Source: Acidimicrobiia bacterium (GTDB lineage: Bacteria; Actinomycetota; Acidimicrobiia; Spongiisociales; JAENVV01). Taken from it: a DNA stretch of 34,820 nucleotides. Positions 18,516 through 24,382 of this stretch are shown here, piece by piece. The position numbers were made by a program, and so were the translations under genes. Below the pieces are notes generated by a model. The model was not told the origin of the DNA and did no database searches. It saw only the letters and a list, made by a program, of their open reading frames with translations. Numbering within the stretch: position 1 is the first letter of the stretch; the number at the start of each line of letters is the position of its first letter. The DNA is taken from NCBI GenBank assembly GCA_024637275.1, contig JAGXFS010000101.1:1-34820 (forward strand), in the 5' to 3' direction.

Positions 18516-19508
18516 TTAGGCACTGATTTTGAGAGTGATGGTGGTCTTGTACAGGACCTGACCAGCCCAACGCCAGGCGCCCGTGAATACGTAAGTCCCC
18601 GGTGCGAGCTTGCCAAGGGTTGCTGTGTACGAACGCCTGGTCGTCGAACCGTTTGTGATGTCGCTCCCAACCGCGAGATTGAGGGGTGCATCGTTCAAGG
18701 AGACGGTGAAGGTGGCTTCGTCGAAACGGTCCTCGTCGCCAGGAGCGAATGGGCCATCATAGAACCAGCCTTCGTTGATGTAGTACTCGTCGAGCCTTGG
18801 TGAATTGATGGTGATCTGGCAGGTGACCTGAAGCGGGTCACAGACTCCTGAAAAAGGAATCGAGAACAGCAGTTGGTCATGGAGCAGCGGGATCGGCAAA
18901 GGAACCGCTCTCGTCAAGAAAGTAGCCATCTCGCCGCGAGTGACCGTGCGAGTCGGGCAAAACCTTTGGGGGGCGCAACCTGCGGTGATGCCTGCCGCGG
19001 CGAGAGCGTTGATGTCGTTCTCGAACAGGGTGCCGTTGTCGTCGGTGAAGAAGTTGGTAGTCGATCCGGACAGTTGGAACCCTCTGACCAAGAATGCGGC
19101 CATTTGGCCGCGGGTGACCGCCTGGTCAGGGCAATAACGATCACCACTCGGACGGCACCCGGTCGTGATGCCGGAGGCGCGGAGCGAATTGATCGCCGAT
19201 TCGTGAATATTGCCGGTGTCGTCGTCGAAATAGTCGGCGCTCGTGGCTGGCAGGTCGAGGGCTCTGACCAGGAAGGTCGCCATCTCGGCACGGGTCACGT
19301 TGTTGAACGGGCAGAACCGGGTGTTTGCCGGAGGGTTGCATCCCTTGGTAATGCCGGCCGCCCGCAACGCGTTGATGTTCTGCTCGTGCACGATGCCCTC
19401 GTCATCGGTGAAGTACCCATTTGGGGGGATATGGTCGGCCAGGGCAGGCGTGGCCGGTAGTGCGAGCGCGGCAACCAGCATCATGACGAGCGTGAGCTGG
19501 CGACTCAT
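18516..19508 (-). CDS. S-layer-homology (SLH) repeat surface protein
   Basis: This 330-residue exported protein has a signal peptide (M-L-V-A-A-L-A-L-P-A-T-P-A-L-A) and three SLH-like repeats at roughly 31-85, 88-142 and 145-195. Each repeat holds F-x-D-D-x-G, I-N-A/S-L, A-G-I-T-x-G-C, an R-F/Y-C-P and V-T-R-x-E/Q-M-A. The two Cys in each repeat probably form a disulfide. The last ~120 residues are a beta-rich domain of unknown type with two further Cys. SLH repeats bind cell-wall polymers. The ATG at 19508 overlaps the upstream stop as ATGA, so this is the last gene of the Mau-like operon. Confidence 0.87.
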   Translation of the reverse strand: MSRQLTLVMMLVAALALPATPALADHIPPNGYFTDDEGIVHEQNINALRAAGITKGCNPPANTRFCPFNNVTRAEMATFLVRALDLPATSADYFDDDTGNIHESAINSLRASGITTGCRPSGDRYCPDQAVTRGQMAAFLVRGFQLSGSTTNFFTDDNGTLFENDINALAAAGITAGCAPQRFCPTRTVTRGEMATFLTRAVPLPIPLLHDQLLFSIPFSGVCDPLQVTCQITINSPRLDEYYINEGWFYDGPFAPGDEDRFDEATFTVSLNDAPLNLAVGSDITNGSTTRRSYTATLGKLAPGTYVFTGAWRWAGQVLYKTTITLKISA

Positions 19509-19981
19509 GGCAAGCTGAGGGTGTCCAACACCTCGTTGGCCTGAGCGACCAGGGTTTCGGCGTCGCGTCCTGACCCGAGGACGACAAACAGACAAAACGG
19601 TCGGCCGCTTGCCGATGAAAAGAACTGTTGTAGCCCGGCCTGGCCGGGGAGGGGCCTCTGCAGGCGGTTGGCGTCGAAGTCGGCCGGCCGGAGCGGCCAA
19701 GGTACGGTCGTGCTTGAGAACAGGGCGGTACCCCGCTCAGCCTCCCCGTATTCGAAAAGCACTATGAGGATGTCGTCGAGCCGCATGAGCTCAACGGCGC
19801 CTCCGCCGAAATCGCCTCGTTCGTTTGGCAATGGCCAGTTGGCGAAATGGGCGATCGTGGTTGTGACTTCGGGGGCGTGCCCTTCGGCAAGTGGAGCGGC
19901 TGCGGCGTTTCGCCGGTAAAAGTCGGCCTCCCACCCGGCCGGTAGATCAACCGTGATGCCGCGATCGCTGATCTGGGTCAC
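19505..19981 (-). CDS. 158-residue hypothetical protein of the Mau-like operon
   Basis: This product starts at GTG 19981 (M-T-Q-I-S-D-R-G-I-T-V-D-L-P-A-G-W) and runs to 19505. It has no signal peptide. The opening 'I-x-V-x-L-P-x-G-W-E-A' and the later F-F-S-S-A-S-G-R-P-F-C-L-F-V-V-L-G-S resemble small beta-rich actinobacterial proteins of unknown role. One Cys near residue 129 is the only thiol. Both ends overlap neighbours by 4 bases (GTGA at the start, ATGA at the end), which points to translational coupling. Upstream in-frame codons do not look coding. Confidence 0.72.
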   Translation of the reverse strand: MTQISDRGITVDLPAGWEADFYRRNAAAAPLAEGHAPEVTTTIAHFANWPLPNERGDFGGGAVELMRLDDILIVLFEYGEAERGTALFSSTTVPWPLRPADFDANRLQRPLPGQAGLQQFFSSASGRPFCLFVVLGSGRDAETLVAQANEVLDTLSLP

Positions 19982-20568
19982 AACCGTCCGCCGATGACAA
20001 CGAGACCAGTAGCCACGACGGCAAAACGGACGAGCCAGTCTGCCCGCGGTGCGTACGATTGCATGCGCCGATGATAGGTGCGGAGCGTTTTGCCGGAGAC
20101 GACCCGACCGACCGTAAGGATCGGCAGTCCACGCACCAGGCCAAATGTCCCGCCGATCACCGCACCACTCAAGGGTTGAGCCGACAGTATGGCGAGGGCG
20201 ACCATTGCATACACCGCAGTGGTCGTCACGATCGTCACCACGCCGAGGCCGAGCTGAAAACCGAAGCCACCTCCGTAGACCCAGCTGCGATACATGGACA
20301 GCCAGTCTTCGTTCACCTGCCGGTGGATCGTCGGGATGGTCAAGCCCGAAAGGTCCCACACAAGGGCAATCGCCAGGATGGCGGCGATCGCGGCGGCCTG
20401 ACCGGTCGGGGTCGGGTCCCACCATGCCAGGCCCAACCAGCCGATGGCACCTGCCGCAGCACCCAGGACAAGTCCGCCGATGAGTCCGCCCACGAGGTAG
20501 TAGACGGCGGTTAGGCCCCATTGATTGTTGCGGGTCCGCTCACCGAGCGGATGGATGCTCGACAGCAT
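19978..20568 (-). CDS. Multi-pass membrane protein of the Mau-like operon
   Basis: This 196-residue protein has about five hydrophobic helices separated by short loops, including a Gly-rich first helix (G-G-L-I-G-G-L-V-L-G-A-A-A-G). It has no cysteine, so a direct redox role is unlikely. I recognise no family. A GAGGGGAG ribosome site precedes the ATG at 20568 and overlaps the stop of the 21-codon frame upstream. The stop overlaps the next start as GTGA. Confidence 0.75.
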   Translation of the reverse strand: MLSSIHPLGERTRNNQWGLTAVYYLVGGLIGGLVLGAAAGAIGWLGLAWWDPTPTGQAAAIAAILAIALVWDLSGLTIPTIHRQVNEDWLSMYRSWVYGGGFGFQLGLGVVTIVTTTAVYAMVALAILSAQPLSGAVIGGTFGLVRGLPILTVGRVVSGKTLRTYHRRMQSYAPRADWLVRFAVVATGLVVIGGRL

Positions 20569-20577
20569 CGACTCCCC

Positions 20578-20643
20578 TCAAGGTGACCAACTCGCCCTGA
20601 TGGCTGCGGCGATGGCCACCACGACTCCTGCAGCGACGATCAC
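20578..20643 (-). CDS. Possible 21-residue hydrophobic micro-ORF
   Basis: A GTG at 20643 overlaps the MauD-like stop as GTGA and follows a GAGG by 7 bases. It opens a 21-codon frame with hydrophobic residues 2-15 (I-V-A-A-G-V-V-V-A-I-A-A-A-I) and a polar end R-A-S-W-S-P. Its stop is followed 9 bases later by the next gene's ATG. The frame fills the only gap in an otherwise overlapping operon, which argues for translation, either as a tiny membrane peptide or as a coupling element. Its length makes chance quite possible. Confidence 0.4.
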   Translation of the reverse strand: MIVAAGVVVAIAAAIRASWSP

Positions 20644-21365
20644 GGTTGGACCTCGGGTGCGTCGGTTGGATATAGCGAGGGGTCTCCCGGTTCGATACCG
20701 GCCGCCCGCAGTTCGTCATCGGCGTATTTCTCGCGGTCCGAGCCTGGCCGGTGGGCGCGCGTCCGGATCGTTGAATCACGGTAGGCCTGCGTGAGCAGCG
20801 ATTGGACCTGTTTCCATGACCCGGCTGATCCCTCGCCAACGATCTTTCCTGCCTCCACGAGGATGAAATAGGGCGAAACGGGGATTTTGTATTGATCCCA
20901 AGCTTGTGAAGTCATAACCACGGGATGATGGCGGGGCGCGAGCTTTTCGAGTTGCGATTCGCTTTCATGTTCGAGGCTCTTCGTGACAATCACTAAGCGG
21001 GTGTCGAGTCCCGGCAGGTCAAGGTCCGCTCGCTCGCTGAACTCTTTCCAGAAGATCTGACAGGTTGAACAGCCGGTCGTCATGAATGCCAAAAGCGTCG
21101 TGTGCTCGGTTCCCAGCACCCCAACATGTCGGGTGGCCCCGTCGGGTTTGGTGCCGGAAATATCGAAGGCCGGGGTGGTCTCGGTGCGGGGCTCGGCGAT
21201 CCCCTCCCGGGTCTTCAGTCCAGAACTACGGGTGGCTTTTCCACCCTCGCCAACTCCCAACTCGTGCAGCGCCCGAAGGATCTCGGCGTGGCTCCGCAGC
21301 AGGCCGGCCACCAGGATTGCCAGCAGCGCGACTGCGACAGTGAGCGAGACGATCAGGGCGGTCAT
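20640..21365 (-). CDS. MauD-like membrane-anchored thioredoxin-fold protein
   Basis: The 241-residue protein has an N-terminal helix (residues 1-23) and a thioredoxin-like domain from about 65 to 200 with the redox pair Cys99 and Cys102 (T-G-C-S-T-C-Q-I-F-W) and the cis-Pro in I-P-V-S-P-Y-F. MauD is needed in methylotrophs for disulfide formation in the methylamine dehydrogenase light chain. Here it follows the Cys-rich MauA-like gene directly (TGATG, 1-base overlap), so it probably oxidises or isomerises that protein's disulfides outside the membrane. The C-terminal ~45 residues are charged and not part of the fold. Confidence 0.82.
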   Translation of the reverse strand: MTALIVSLTVAVALLAILVAGLLRSHAEILRALHELGVGEGGKATRSSGLKTREGIAEPRTETTPAFDISGTKPDGATRHVGVLGTEHTTLLAFMTTGCSTCQIFWKEFSERADLDLPGLDTRLVIVTKSLEHESESQLEKLAPRHHPVVMTSQAWDQYKIPVSPYFILVEAGKIVGEGSAGSWKQVQSLLTQAYRDSTIRTRAHRPGSDREKYADDELRAAGIEPGDPSLYPTDAPEVQP

Positions 21366-22750
21366 CAGACGAGCCAGGTTCCGTCGTCGGTGTCGGGCGC
21401 GGGGAGGTCGGGTAGAGCGGTTGGGCTTGCGGACCATACAACCGGCGTGCCGGTCGGCATTTCCAGAGTGACGTTGGCGCCACCCGTCCAGTTGCCGTTG
21501 CGGAGCATCCAGGTTGTGCCGTCACGAATGACGCCGGGTGTGTCGGACCCGTTGCCATCCCAGTCGCCGACGATCGGGGTGTCGGTGGCGAGACCAAAGT
21601 TGAACACCAGGTCGGGCTGTCCGGCCGAATTGGTGTTGCGCAAATACCAGGTTCCGTTGCGGAAATACCCGGGCGTGGCGACGCCATCACCATTCCAATC
21701 GCCAACGACAAACTGATCGCCGACTTGGCCAAACGTGAATATGTAGTCCGGTTCCCCGGTGGCGTTGGCGTTGCGAAGACGGAACTGATTGCCCCGGATG
21801 ACTCCGATGGTTTCGACGCCGCTGCCGTTCCAATCGCCGACGATCGGAATATCGCCTGGTTCGCCGTACGAGAAGATCAAGTCAGGCGTGCCGCCCCCTA
21901 CCGAGTTCTTGAGGCGCCACCAGAGAACCTCGTCGCCCAGACGACCAAATCGGCTGTTGCGCACTACGCCGGGTGTCCGGGTGCCGTCACCGTTCCAGTC
22001 GCCTACGACCGGTATCTCATTGGTGAGACCAAAAGAGAAGTTGGTGTTCGGTGACGACGTTTCAATCCCGTTCTTCAGCGTCCAGCTACCGGCGTTGTAG
22101 ACCCCGGGGAGGGCCGGGTAGTTGGTGGAGTTCTGGAGGCAGGGAGCGTTGTGGAATCGGGTGTTGTTGTCGGTGGCGCTGGTCGTCGAGCAACTGGAGT
22201 CCCACACCCAGGGCGGGGTGCACGTGACAACCCGGCACACGATCGGTCCGAGGCACCTCACATCGTTACCGCACTGGCCATATCGGAAGGAGGTACAGCA
22301 AGCCTTGCGGTTCTTGCAGCTCTTGTTTCCGCATTCGCAATTGCAGCTGACGCACGAACGCGAACACAGCCCGGACCCGCCACAAGAACATCCGTTGCAT
22401 GAGGCGTTGCAGTCGAGGTAATAGCGGGGCTGTCCGACGCCATCGACCGTGCAGTAGCCGGAGCCATCGGCTTTCCACCAACCCGCTGCCGTTGACCCGG
22501 GCGGGCAACCGTTCTCACCCGTCAGGGTGCAGCAGAACTCGGTGTACCCGTCGCAACACTGATCCGAACAGTTGCACGATTGCCCCGAGCACGAACAAAT
22601 GGCTGAATATGCACTCACCGGCTGCATCGTGAACTTCAGCGGAGAAACGACCAGGGCGGTTCCAGCCATGGCGGCTCGTTTGAGAAAGCCGCGACGGTCC
22701 AGTTTGCGGTCCAGCAGGGAGCTGGTCTTGTCAACGAGCCAGCGACTCAT
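21365..22750 (-). CDS. Tat-exported Cys-rich MauA-like domain fused to FG-GAP-like propeller repeats
   Basis: This 461-residue protein has a twin-arginine signal (D-R-R-G-F-L-K-R, Arg19-20). Residues 52-177 hold 26 cysteines. They align in part with the methylamine dehydrogenase light chain: C-P-P-G-S...G-W-W-K (82-93), R-Y-Y-L-D-C (109-114) and G-N-D-V-R-C-L-G (161-168). In MauA the last motif is N-D-I-I-W-C-F-G, and that Trp plus the earlier one form TTQ. Here the position reads Arg165, while Trp91/92 are kept. Residues ~215-440 hold four repeats of ~50 residues with a Ca-loop-like G-D-W-N-G-D-G-x-x-T-P-G-V-x-R, as in FG-GAP/VCBS beta-propellers. The ATG overlaps the MauE-like stop as ATGA. 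It probably acts as an exported structural or redox protein. The catalytic role is unknown. Confidence 0.8.
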   Translation of the reverse strand: MSRWLVDKTSSLLDRKLDRRGFLKRAAMAGTALVVSPLKFTMQPVSAYSAICSCSGQSCNCSDQCCDGYTEFCCTLTGENGCPPGSTAAGWWKADGSGYCTVDGVGQPRYYLDCNASCNGCSCGGSGLCSRSCVSCNCECGNKSCKNRKACCTSFRYGQCGNDVRCLGPIVCRVVTCTPPWVWDSSCSTTSATDNNTRFHNAPCLQNSTNYPALPGVYNAGSWTLKNGIETSSPNTNFSFGLTNEIPVVGDWNGDGTRTPGVVRNSRFGRLGDEVLWWRLKNSVGGGTPDLIFSYGEPGDIPIVGDWNGSGVETIGVIRGNQFRLRNANATGEPDYIFTFGQVGDQFVVGDWNGDGVATPGYFRNGTWYLRNTNSAGQPDLVFNFGLATDTPIVGDWDGNGSDTPGVIRDGTTWMLRNGNWTGGANVTLEMPTGTPVVWSASPTALPDLPAPDTDDGTWLV

Positions 22751-23268
22751 GAGGTGCGAACTGCGCGAAGGATCTGCGGAAGGGCGGTCAGGGCCACATA
22801 GAGAAGGTAGATGATGACCCCGGTCAGTAGGAGCAGCGGAACTCCTGCGCCGGGTTGATCAGCCAGAAGTTCGGTCAATCCGGGGATTGGCCTGGTGGCC
22901 ATGAGTGCGGCGACACCGGCCGCCGCGAGATTCACCATGACGTGAATGATGGAAGGGGGCGTCTCGGCCTTTCCAAAGCAACCGCATGACTGCACGGGGG
23001 TCTCCGCTCGACGGGCGATGAGCACGAACCCGGCGAAACTCACGTAAGCCGCAGCCGTTAGCAATGAGGCAATCGGGTGGCCCGTCCCGAACGCGACGAC
23101 GCCGATCACAATTTCGACGATCCCCAAACTCCGGATCAGTAACGGCTGGGATGGCAGCCCCAGCGCGTCGAGTGCGGTCGCAGTTTCGGTCGGCCGGACC
23201 ACCTTGAGACCTCCGCCGAGCGCGAGCAAGGCGGTCACAGCGAGATAGGGTCCGGCGATACTGAGCAT
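22747..23268 (-). CDS. MauE/DoxX-like redox-associated membrane protein
   Basis: The 173-residue protein has four hydrophobic helices and a C-G-C-F-G motif (Cys95, Cys97) on the loop between helices 2 and 3. MauE-like proteins of the DoxX/DoxD superfamily usually carry this C-x-C-F-G loop and work with MauD in disulfide delivery to exported proteins; a quinone is a probable electron acceptor, by analogy. It is the first gene of the overlapping operon and ends in an ATGA overlap with the Cys-rich target gene. No purine-rich ribosome site precedes the ATG; a 22-base dyad abuts it. Confidence 0.82.
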   Translation of the reverse strand: MLSIAGPYLAVTALLALGGGLKVVRPTETATALDALGLPSQPLLIRSLGIVEIVIGVVAFGTGHPIASLLTAAAYVSFAGFVLIARRAETPVQSCGCFGKAETPPSIIHVMVNLAAAGVAALMATRPIPGLTELLADQPGAGVPLLLLTGVIIYLLYVALTALPQILRAVRTS

Positions 23269-23318: not shown

Positions 23319-24023
23319 TCAGGTGGTGCGGCCTGAGGTGTGCTTGAGGGCAGCGGTGTTCTCGACCCTGATCAGGCGATAGCCAGTGCTGATCGCGCCA
23401 CTTTCCCGCAGTTCCTTGAGGGCTTCGTTGACGGTTTGGCGGCTGGCACCGAGTAGGTCGGCTATCGCCGATTGGGAGAGGTGGACTTCGCCCCGCTGGT
23501 CGGCTTCGTCGAGCAAGAGTTCAGATACTTGTTCGCGGACGGTGCGGTGCATGAGGCCCAGGACTCGCCGCTGGGTTGACTCAAGCTGGGTGAGGCCAGC
23601 GACGAGCCATCGGAGGGTCAGAACGGGCCGTTGCAGGAGCACGGGGAGGAGCTTGTCCCGGTCGAAACGGAAGGCGGTCACCGCATTGACTGCCCGGGCT
23701 GACGATTTGTAGGGCTCGTCACGAAACATCGCAATGTCACCCAGGACAGACCCGGGATGGGCCCGTCCGATGACCCGTCGGTGGCTGCTGTCGCCCCGAT
23801 AGAGCTCTACTTGGCCGGATTCGATGACATAGGCGGAGGTCGCGTCCTGTCCGCTGCGAAATAGATGGGTACCCGGGTACTTTTCGATGACTTCGCCCGT
23901 TTCGGCGAGAGCTTCGAGGTCGCTGGGACGAAGCGGGAGATACTCGGTTCGACCGAAGGTGCTCGCCAGCCAGGCGAAGTGTTGTGCGCTCTTGTTATCC
24001 ATTTGATCTGGTATTGCCAACAT
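23319..24023 (-). CDS. Crp/Fnr-family transcription regulator
   Basis: This ~234-residue protein has a cyclic-nucleotide-binding-type barrel (about 30-145; G-T-H-L-F-R-S-G, Y-V-I-E-S-G-Q-V-E-L, G-S-V-L-G-D-I-A-M-F) and a C-terminal Crp-type helix-turn-helix (S-Q-S-A-I-A-D-L-L-G-A-S-R-Q-T-V-N-E-A-L-K-E-L). No N-terminal FNR iron-sulfur cysteines are present. The barrel has G-D-I-A-M in place of the G-E-(L)-(A/S) phosphate cassette, so cAMP binding is uncertain. It lies 50 bases upstream of the Mau-like operon and is a candidate regulator of it. Starts at GTG 24050 (overlapping the previous gene) or ATG 24002 are alternatives. Confidence 0.87.
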   Translation of the reverse strand: MLAIPDQMDNKSAQHFAWLASTFGRTEYLPLRPSDLEALAETGEVIEKYPGTHLFRSGQDATSAYVIESGQVELYRGDSSHRRVIGRAHPGSVLGDIAMFRDEPYKSSARAVNAVTAFRFDRDKLLPVLLQRPVLTLRWLVAGLTQLESTQRRVLGLMHRTVREQVSELLLDEADQRGEVHLSQSAIADLLGASRQTVNEALKELRESGAISTGYRLIRVENTAALKHTSGRTT

Positions 24024-24031
24024 TCCGACAG

Positions 24032-24382
24032 TCACTTCTGTTCCCGCCACATGGCTGCCAGCCCCAGAGCGGCGATTCCGCCGACGAGCGAGAACACATA
24101 CGCTTCAAGCGCCGCCCCGCCGACCGACAGGAGAGTCGGCCCCTCCAGTCCGCCGGTCAGTGCCAGGACGGTGGTGGTGGCGGCGCCAACGAGGACGCCA
24201 ACCGCGCTGAGAGCGAAGCGCTTGCGCCAAACGATCGACGGATCCTCGGCCATCGACCCGAGGAGGGGCCAGGCGCCCAGAATCACCGGGGCAAGATGCA
24301 AGGTTCGGGTTGGCGACGTCAGGGCCAGGACAATCCATAACGCCACGAATACGCCAACGGTTAACCATGGCTGTCGTTTCAT
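24032..24382 (-). CDS. Small membrane protein, unknown
   Basis: This 116-residue protein has about three to four hydrophobic helices and no cysteine in the readable part. It ends W-R-E-Q-K, 8 bases before the preferred start of the Crp/Fnr gene, so the two are probably co-transcribed. I recognise no domain. Confidence 0.72.
   Translation of the reverse strand: MKRQPWLTVGVFVALWIVLALTSPTRTLHLAPVILGAWPLLGSMAEDPSIVWRKRFALSAVGVLVGAATTTVLALTGGLEGPTLLSVGGAALEAYVFSLVGGIAALGLAAMWREQK

Follow-up and report, generated by a model that had tools for sequence, protein, structure and literature searches.

The known role of MauE, MauD and MauF is to assist the amine dehydrogenases. In an Acidimicrobiia bacterium their homologues flank a gene whose single product joins a cysteine-rich domain resembling the light chain MauA to repeats of beta-propeller type. 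This locus, which lies in a window of 34,820 nucleotides (the whole stretch of DNA analysed; contig JAGXFS010000101.1), thus raises the question of what such helper genes serve here. An earlier note on this DNA had suggested that the two domains may recreate the light-chain/propeller architecture of methylamine dehydrogenase in one chain, and had observed that one of the two tryptophans of the TTQ cofactor is replaced by Arg165.

The fusion gene and its Mau-type operon

The fusion gene (21365..22750, minus strand) encodes a protein of 461 amino acids for which full-length relatives were found. Its Tat leader with the motif DRRGFLKR (residues 1-47; 22610..22750, minus strand) matches the NCBIfam model TIGR01409 with an E value of 2.4e-5 and aligns with the leader of MauA (hhalign probability 92%, E = 5.8e-7), the match being confined to the leader. 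It is followed by the Cys-rich, MauA-like domain (residues 48-207; 22130..22609, minus strand), delineated from alignments of 49-79 relatives, and by a C-terminal propeller (residues about 212-440; 21431..22117, minus strand) assigned from an AF2 model, a fold match and its four GDWNGDG-type repeats, which begin at residues 250, 305, 350 and 395. Besides the Tat signal, a Pfam and NCBIfam search of the fusion protein returned nothing. The earlier description of a MauA-like domain and repeats fused in one open reading frame is borne out, including the length, the quoted motifs, the four repeats and the Arg165 of this protein. The same fused architecture is kept in about 25 full-length relatives, mostly from Acidimicrobiia, and the fusion is thus not an assembly accident. 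The family as a whole comprises about 80 uncharacterised relatives across Actinomycetota and is covered by no Pfam model; when the N-domain alignment was used as query, 30 of the 396 actinobacterial genomes that were sampled contained relatives, and viral contigs yielded no relatives of the fusion protein.

The fusion gene is part of a tightly packed operon with the order MauE, fusion gene, MauD-like, MauF-like, small gene, SLH protein. The MauE homologue (22747..23268, minus strand), a membrane protein of 173 amino acids, is identified by Pfam PF07291 (E = 6.6e-15) and by hhalign against proteobacterial MauE (3.8e-12), and the end of its gene overlaps the start of the fusion gene by 4 nt (ATGA). 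On the other side, the start of the MauD-like gene (20640..21365, minus strand) overlaps the stop of the fusion gene by 1 nt (TGATG at 21365). It encodes a membrane-anchored redoxin with a GCSTC motif, which aligns with MauD over 177 columns spanning membrane anchor and redoxin domain (hhalign E = 4.4e-15) and has no Pfam redoxin match. The MauF-like membrane protein of 196 amino acids (19978..20568, minus strand) matches Pfam DsbD_2 (E = 1.3e-5) and, over 157 columns, a profile of two MauF sequences only (hhalign E = 2.5e-14); the profiles for both the MauD and the MauF comparison were built from annotated mau operons. A small, apparently conserved gene of about 158 amino acids follows (19505..19981, minus strand; no Pfam match), placed by its junction, at which its GTG start overlaps the MauF-like stop. 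The last gene of the operon (18516..19508, minus strand), whose start at 19508 overlaps the small gene by 4 nt, encodes a secreted SLH-domain protein (Pfam SLH, E = 7.1e-14). Just upstream of mauE lies a gene for a Crp/Fnr-type regulator (23319-24050, minus strand); as a part of the system it was rejected, with matches only in the loci of the closest relatives (L004, L016).

This neighbourhood recurs in the family. Flanking sequence of 2.5 kb or more on either side was available for 47 loci of the family, some of which represent the same place fetched twice; MauE and MauD-like genes are present beside all 47 and a MauF-like gene beside 39. The order is E-A'-D-F-X in most Acidimicrobiia and E-D-F-X-A' in several other actinobacteria, and relatives of the small gene occur near most family loci in a search whose seed included some out-of-frame sequence. 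As in the mau cluster of Paracoccus denitrificans, MauF, MauE and MauD homologues thus share one operon with a Tat-exported Cys-rich product. The order in Paracoccus, however, is F-B-E-D-A-C-J-G..., and B, C, J, G and ferredoxin genes were not found here.

The cysteine-rich domain, TTQ and the probable kinship to MauA

Family-wide, the N-terminal domain keeps 16 cysteines together with the motifs CPP..GWW, RYYxDC, FRYGxC and CRVVxC. In the alignment of 79 relatives W92 is invariant (79/79) and W91 nearly so (78/79), which answers the question of the earlier note whether this pair is conserved. Likewise invariant are CP (82-83), R109-Y110, D113-C114, FRYG (155-158), C160, C172-R173 and C177. 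D113 (79/79) corresponds in the alignment to the catalytic Asp that TTQ enzymes have in their YRDCC motif. Of the landmarks previously regarded as kept, CPP..GWW and RYYxDC hold throughout the family, whereas N-D-x-x-C-x-G does not: distant members read, for example, NTQIPGVTEVVC in this region, and Cys166 is kept in only 51 of 79 relatives.

MauA cross-links two tryptophans (57 and 108), of which the fusion family has the first and never the second. Anchoring the register on Cys109 puts MauA Trp108 at Arg165, while a gap-free alignment to the light chain of aromatic amine dehydrogenase puts it at Cys166; neither register gives a Trp in the query. The column of residue 165 is variable (Ala in 24 relatives, Pro in 19, Arg in 7, a gap in 7, Glu in 6, Lys in 4, and others), and a 98%-identical relative carries Thr. 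Since the second-Trp column is variable and never Trp, the arginine noted before is real in this protein but is not a fixed replacement. Nor did any of the 79 relatives carry a Trp at position 165, which the earlier note would have taken as a sign of local misalignment. Its statement that canonical TTQ cannot form thus stands. The TTQ of methylamine dehydrogenase is finished by MauG, which starts from a monohydroxylated Trp and also makes the Trp-Trp crosslink (PMC7876137). For MauG, no PF03150 match was obtained in the 90.6%-complete genome, whereas control genomes did match. For MauB, the genome gave no PF06433 match, but neither did the control genomes, so this absence is soft; phmmer found no MauB relative near family loci, and no relatives of B, C, J, G or NapH were found there either. 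In the absence of both a second Trp and MauG, the known route to TTQ is excluded.

The invariant Trp and Asp113 leave a small chance for other tryptophan chemistry. We regard it as very improbable that the Cys-rich domain has retained MauA's quinone Trp and catalytic Asp and carries a Trp-derived redox cofactor formed without MauG or a second Trp in a surface-anchored protein. We likewise give little credence to the variant in which the N-domain is a redox enzyme partnered by the propeller and bears another Trp-derived cofactor, such as a Trp-Cys crosslink at W91/W92. The invariance of W92 and D113, the latter matching the YRDCC Asp, and the near-invariance of W91 would suit such a cofactor, but 28 of 79 relatives lack the Cys that lies closest to the second-Trp position, no MauG-type gene was detected in the 90.6%-complete genome or near family loci, and relatives of amicyanin, MauB and MauJ were not picked up. 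For the conserved GWW/RYYxDC/FRYGxC core, we favour a binding or structural role over quinone redox chemistry.

Is the mature domain related to MauA at all? The two share the type of Tat leader, dense conserved cysteines, the order of CPPG and YxxDC, a conserved Trp after CPPG and an operon with MauE, MauD and MauF, and the motif layout C..C....C.C..CPPG..W..C..Y..DC..C.C..C..C follows the same order as in MauA. They differ in that the fusion family has 16 conserved cysteines versus 12 in MauA and AauA, lacks a PF02975 match, carries a fused C-terminal module, has no MauB or MauG found with it, and was found in Actinomycetota instead of Proteobacteria. PF02975 matched neither the query nor any of 49 N-domains at E values up to 5, and hhalign of the mature domain against MauA reached only 1.7-2.7% probability around CPPG, which is not significant. 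In a column-shuffle test, equally good shuffles were obtained in 1 of 150 cases with a lenient gap cost, a number that rose to 26 of 150 under a stricter cost. Neither the query nor the N-domain profile found a convincing sequence match in the PDB; weak Pfam matches of N-domains to Secapin, PRTase-CE and Collar were judged to be chance.

Structure models of the N-domain are poor (pLDDT 48, TM 0.25, fold E values above 1). For that of the compact relative L075 (pLDDT 48), the top fold match is the light chain of aromatic amine dehydrogenase, again with E above 1. TTQ light chains account for 7 of the 32 fold matches of this poor model (ranks 1, 3, 7, 8, 9, 16 and 18; E at least 2.9), seven matches that are not independent, from a group making up a small share of the fold library.

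The absence of a significant sequence match for the mature domain could also mean that the Cys-rich domain is unrelated to MauA, having acquired the same type of leader and the cassette while its CPPG...W...DC layout arose by convergence. That other actinobacterial clients of the cassette (L186-L192, see below) differ much from MauA would fit such an origin, which we consider unlikely, though worth keeping in view: the Cys/CPPG/W/Y/DC layout agrees in order with MauA, and TTQ light chains top the fold search despite the poor model. The MauA-type link proposed earlier therefore holds for the operon with its MauE, MauD and MauF homologues and for the leader, but not for the mature domain at the level of significant sequence similarity. 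By its context the N-domain is MauA-like, and it is probably, not certainly, related to MauA.

The exchangeable C-terminal module

In the AF2 model of the propeller, with pLDDT mostly between 75 and 97, four full blades are followed by one that is closed by the C-terminal strand. The best fold match is the GlcNAc-binding lectin of Psathyrella (Foldseek against PAL/PVL, E = 4.6e-4 to 2e-3), whose propeller has seven blades. In line with this match, the modelled fold with its DxNxDG loops is of the integrin/PVL type; the FG-GAP-like blades with DWNGDG-type loops resemble those of the Psathyrella velutina and asperospora lectins, although the model has five blades versus seven. The heavy chain of methylamine dehydrogenase is absent among the 50 listed fold matches, and no profile similarity to MauB was seen.

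Relatives exchange this module. A C-terminal SLH domain is found in L105, and SLH-like domains are fused to the Cys-rich protein in L105-L110. LGFP repeats occupy the C-terminus in L075, L162, L164, L165, L170 and L174, LGFP plus CWB2 that in L164 and L171, and other repeats that in L130, L131, L133 and L136; Ig-like repeats are also among the alternative partners, and L029 and L155-L158 have no C-terminal module. SLH and CWB2 are cell-wall or surface domains. LGFP has been described among the repeats of surface proteins (PMC2447325). The propeller is one such exchangeable module, whose role is most likely to bind carbohydrate or to anchor the protein at the cell surface.

These observations bear directly on the suggestion that light chain and propeller, or light and heavy chain, are remade in one polypeptide. 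Both types of domain do occur in a single chain. However, the C-terminal partner is swapped or missing in relatives, the modelled propeller is five-bladed and lectin-like without profile similarity to MauB, relatives of MauG and MauB were not found, and there is no TTQ pair. Exchangeable C-termini, a lectin-like propeller and the lack of MauB similarity thus argue against a fused light-plus-heavy-chain enzyme, and we can hardly credit a one-chain protein working like methylamine dehydrogenase.

Probable clients of the Mau-type cassette

A scan of actinobacteria with a MauA profile revealed two further Cys-rich families with Tat leaders beside MauE/MauD/MauF-like genes. In the second family (L183, L184, L185; L193, L194), both the leader and the N-terminal half (CWYASGCCADG...CPxGT) are MauA-like; a C-terminal part of about 300 amino acids without a Pfam match follows, and the neighbours are MauE/MauD/MauF-like. 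In one of the two families, the MauA-like N-terminal half reads CWYASGCCADGALKKICDCC...CPSGT. The third, likewise Tat-exported and beside MauE/MauD/MauF-like genes, is found in L186-L188 and L190-L192 (L195-L197), with the motifs YHICGHxYTTGSCPHPY...GGGWSRCC...DCCS. MauF-like and MauE-like domains are joined in one open reading frame at L191 (2121-3092), L192 (2091-3098) and L197 (6252-7382), the MauF-like part covering residues about 4-171 and the MauE-like part about 211-359; these fusions support a functional link between MauF and MauE. Further Cys-rich families beside the cassette are as expected if it serves several clients, and a folding cassette with several clients is the simplest reading of the actinobacterial families.

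As for published work that treats MauE/MauD as a disulfide system of general use, PMC7794033 alone comes close. It describes MauE/MauD homologues in Streptomyces, found by decRiPPter, beside small open reading frames with at least 8 Cys in a RiPP setting, thus, as here, next to a Cys-rich product and without methylamine dehydrogenase. Its passages on these genes present disulfide formation by MauE, MauD and MauF only as a proposal (citing van der Palen 1997), call the disulfide role of MauE speculative and the function of MauD unclear. The Streptomyces products were read as RiPP precursors, and by the same reasoning the Cys-rich protein might be a precursor peptide modified by MauE/MauD. This appears highly implausible for a Tat protein of 461 amino acids with a large folded, surface-type C-terminal domain, whose relatives bear wall-binding domains and in whose operon no tailoring enzyme was seen.

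In conclusion, we consider it reasonably probable that the product is a Tat-exported, disulfide-rich surface protein, in which the N-domain is a client of the Mau cassette and is probably related to MauA, though very distantly and without TTQ, and the propeller is an exchangeable module. Guided by its leader, the protein would be exported by the Tat pathway. By analogy with the Paracoccus mau system, MauE, MauD and MauF, encoded in the same operon, may then introduce as many as eight disulfides on the outer side of the membrane. Finally, the C-terminal module, judged by its fold and its swapping among relatives, would attach the protein through a putative surface ligand.

Across Actinomycetota, the cassette lies beside several Tat-exported Cys-rich families for which neither an enzyme partner nor TTQ machinery was found. 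This suggests that Tat clients share a more general route of oxidative folding, with methylamine dehydrogenase as one specialised case. The accessory genes may hence serve a wider class of surface proteins than one enzyme, and a family of about 80 proteins lacking a Pfam model gains a testable role.
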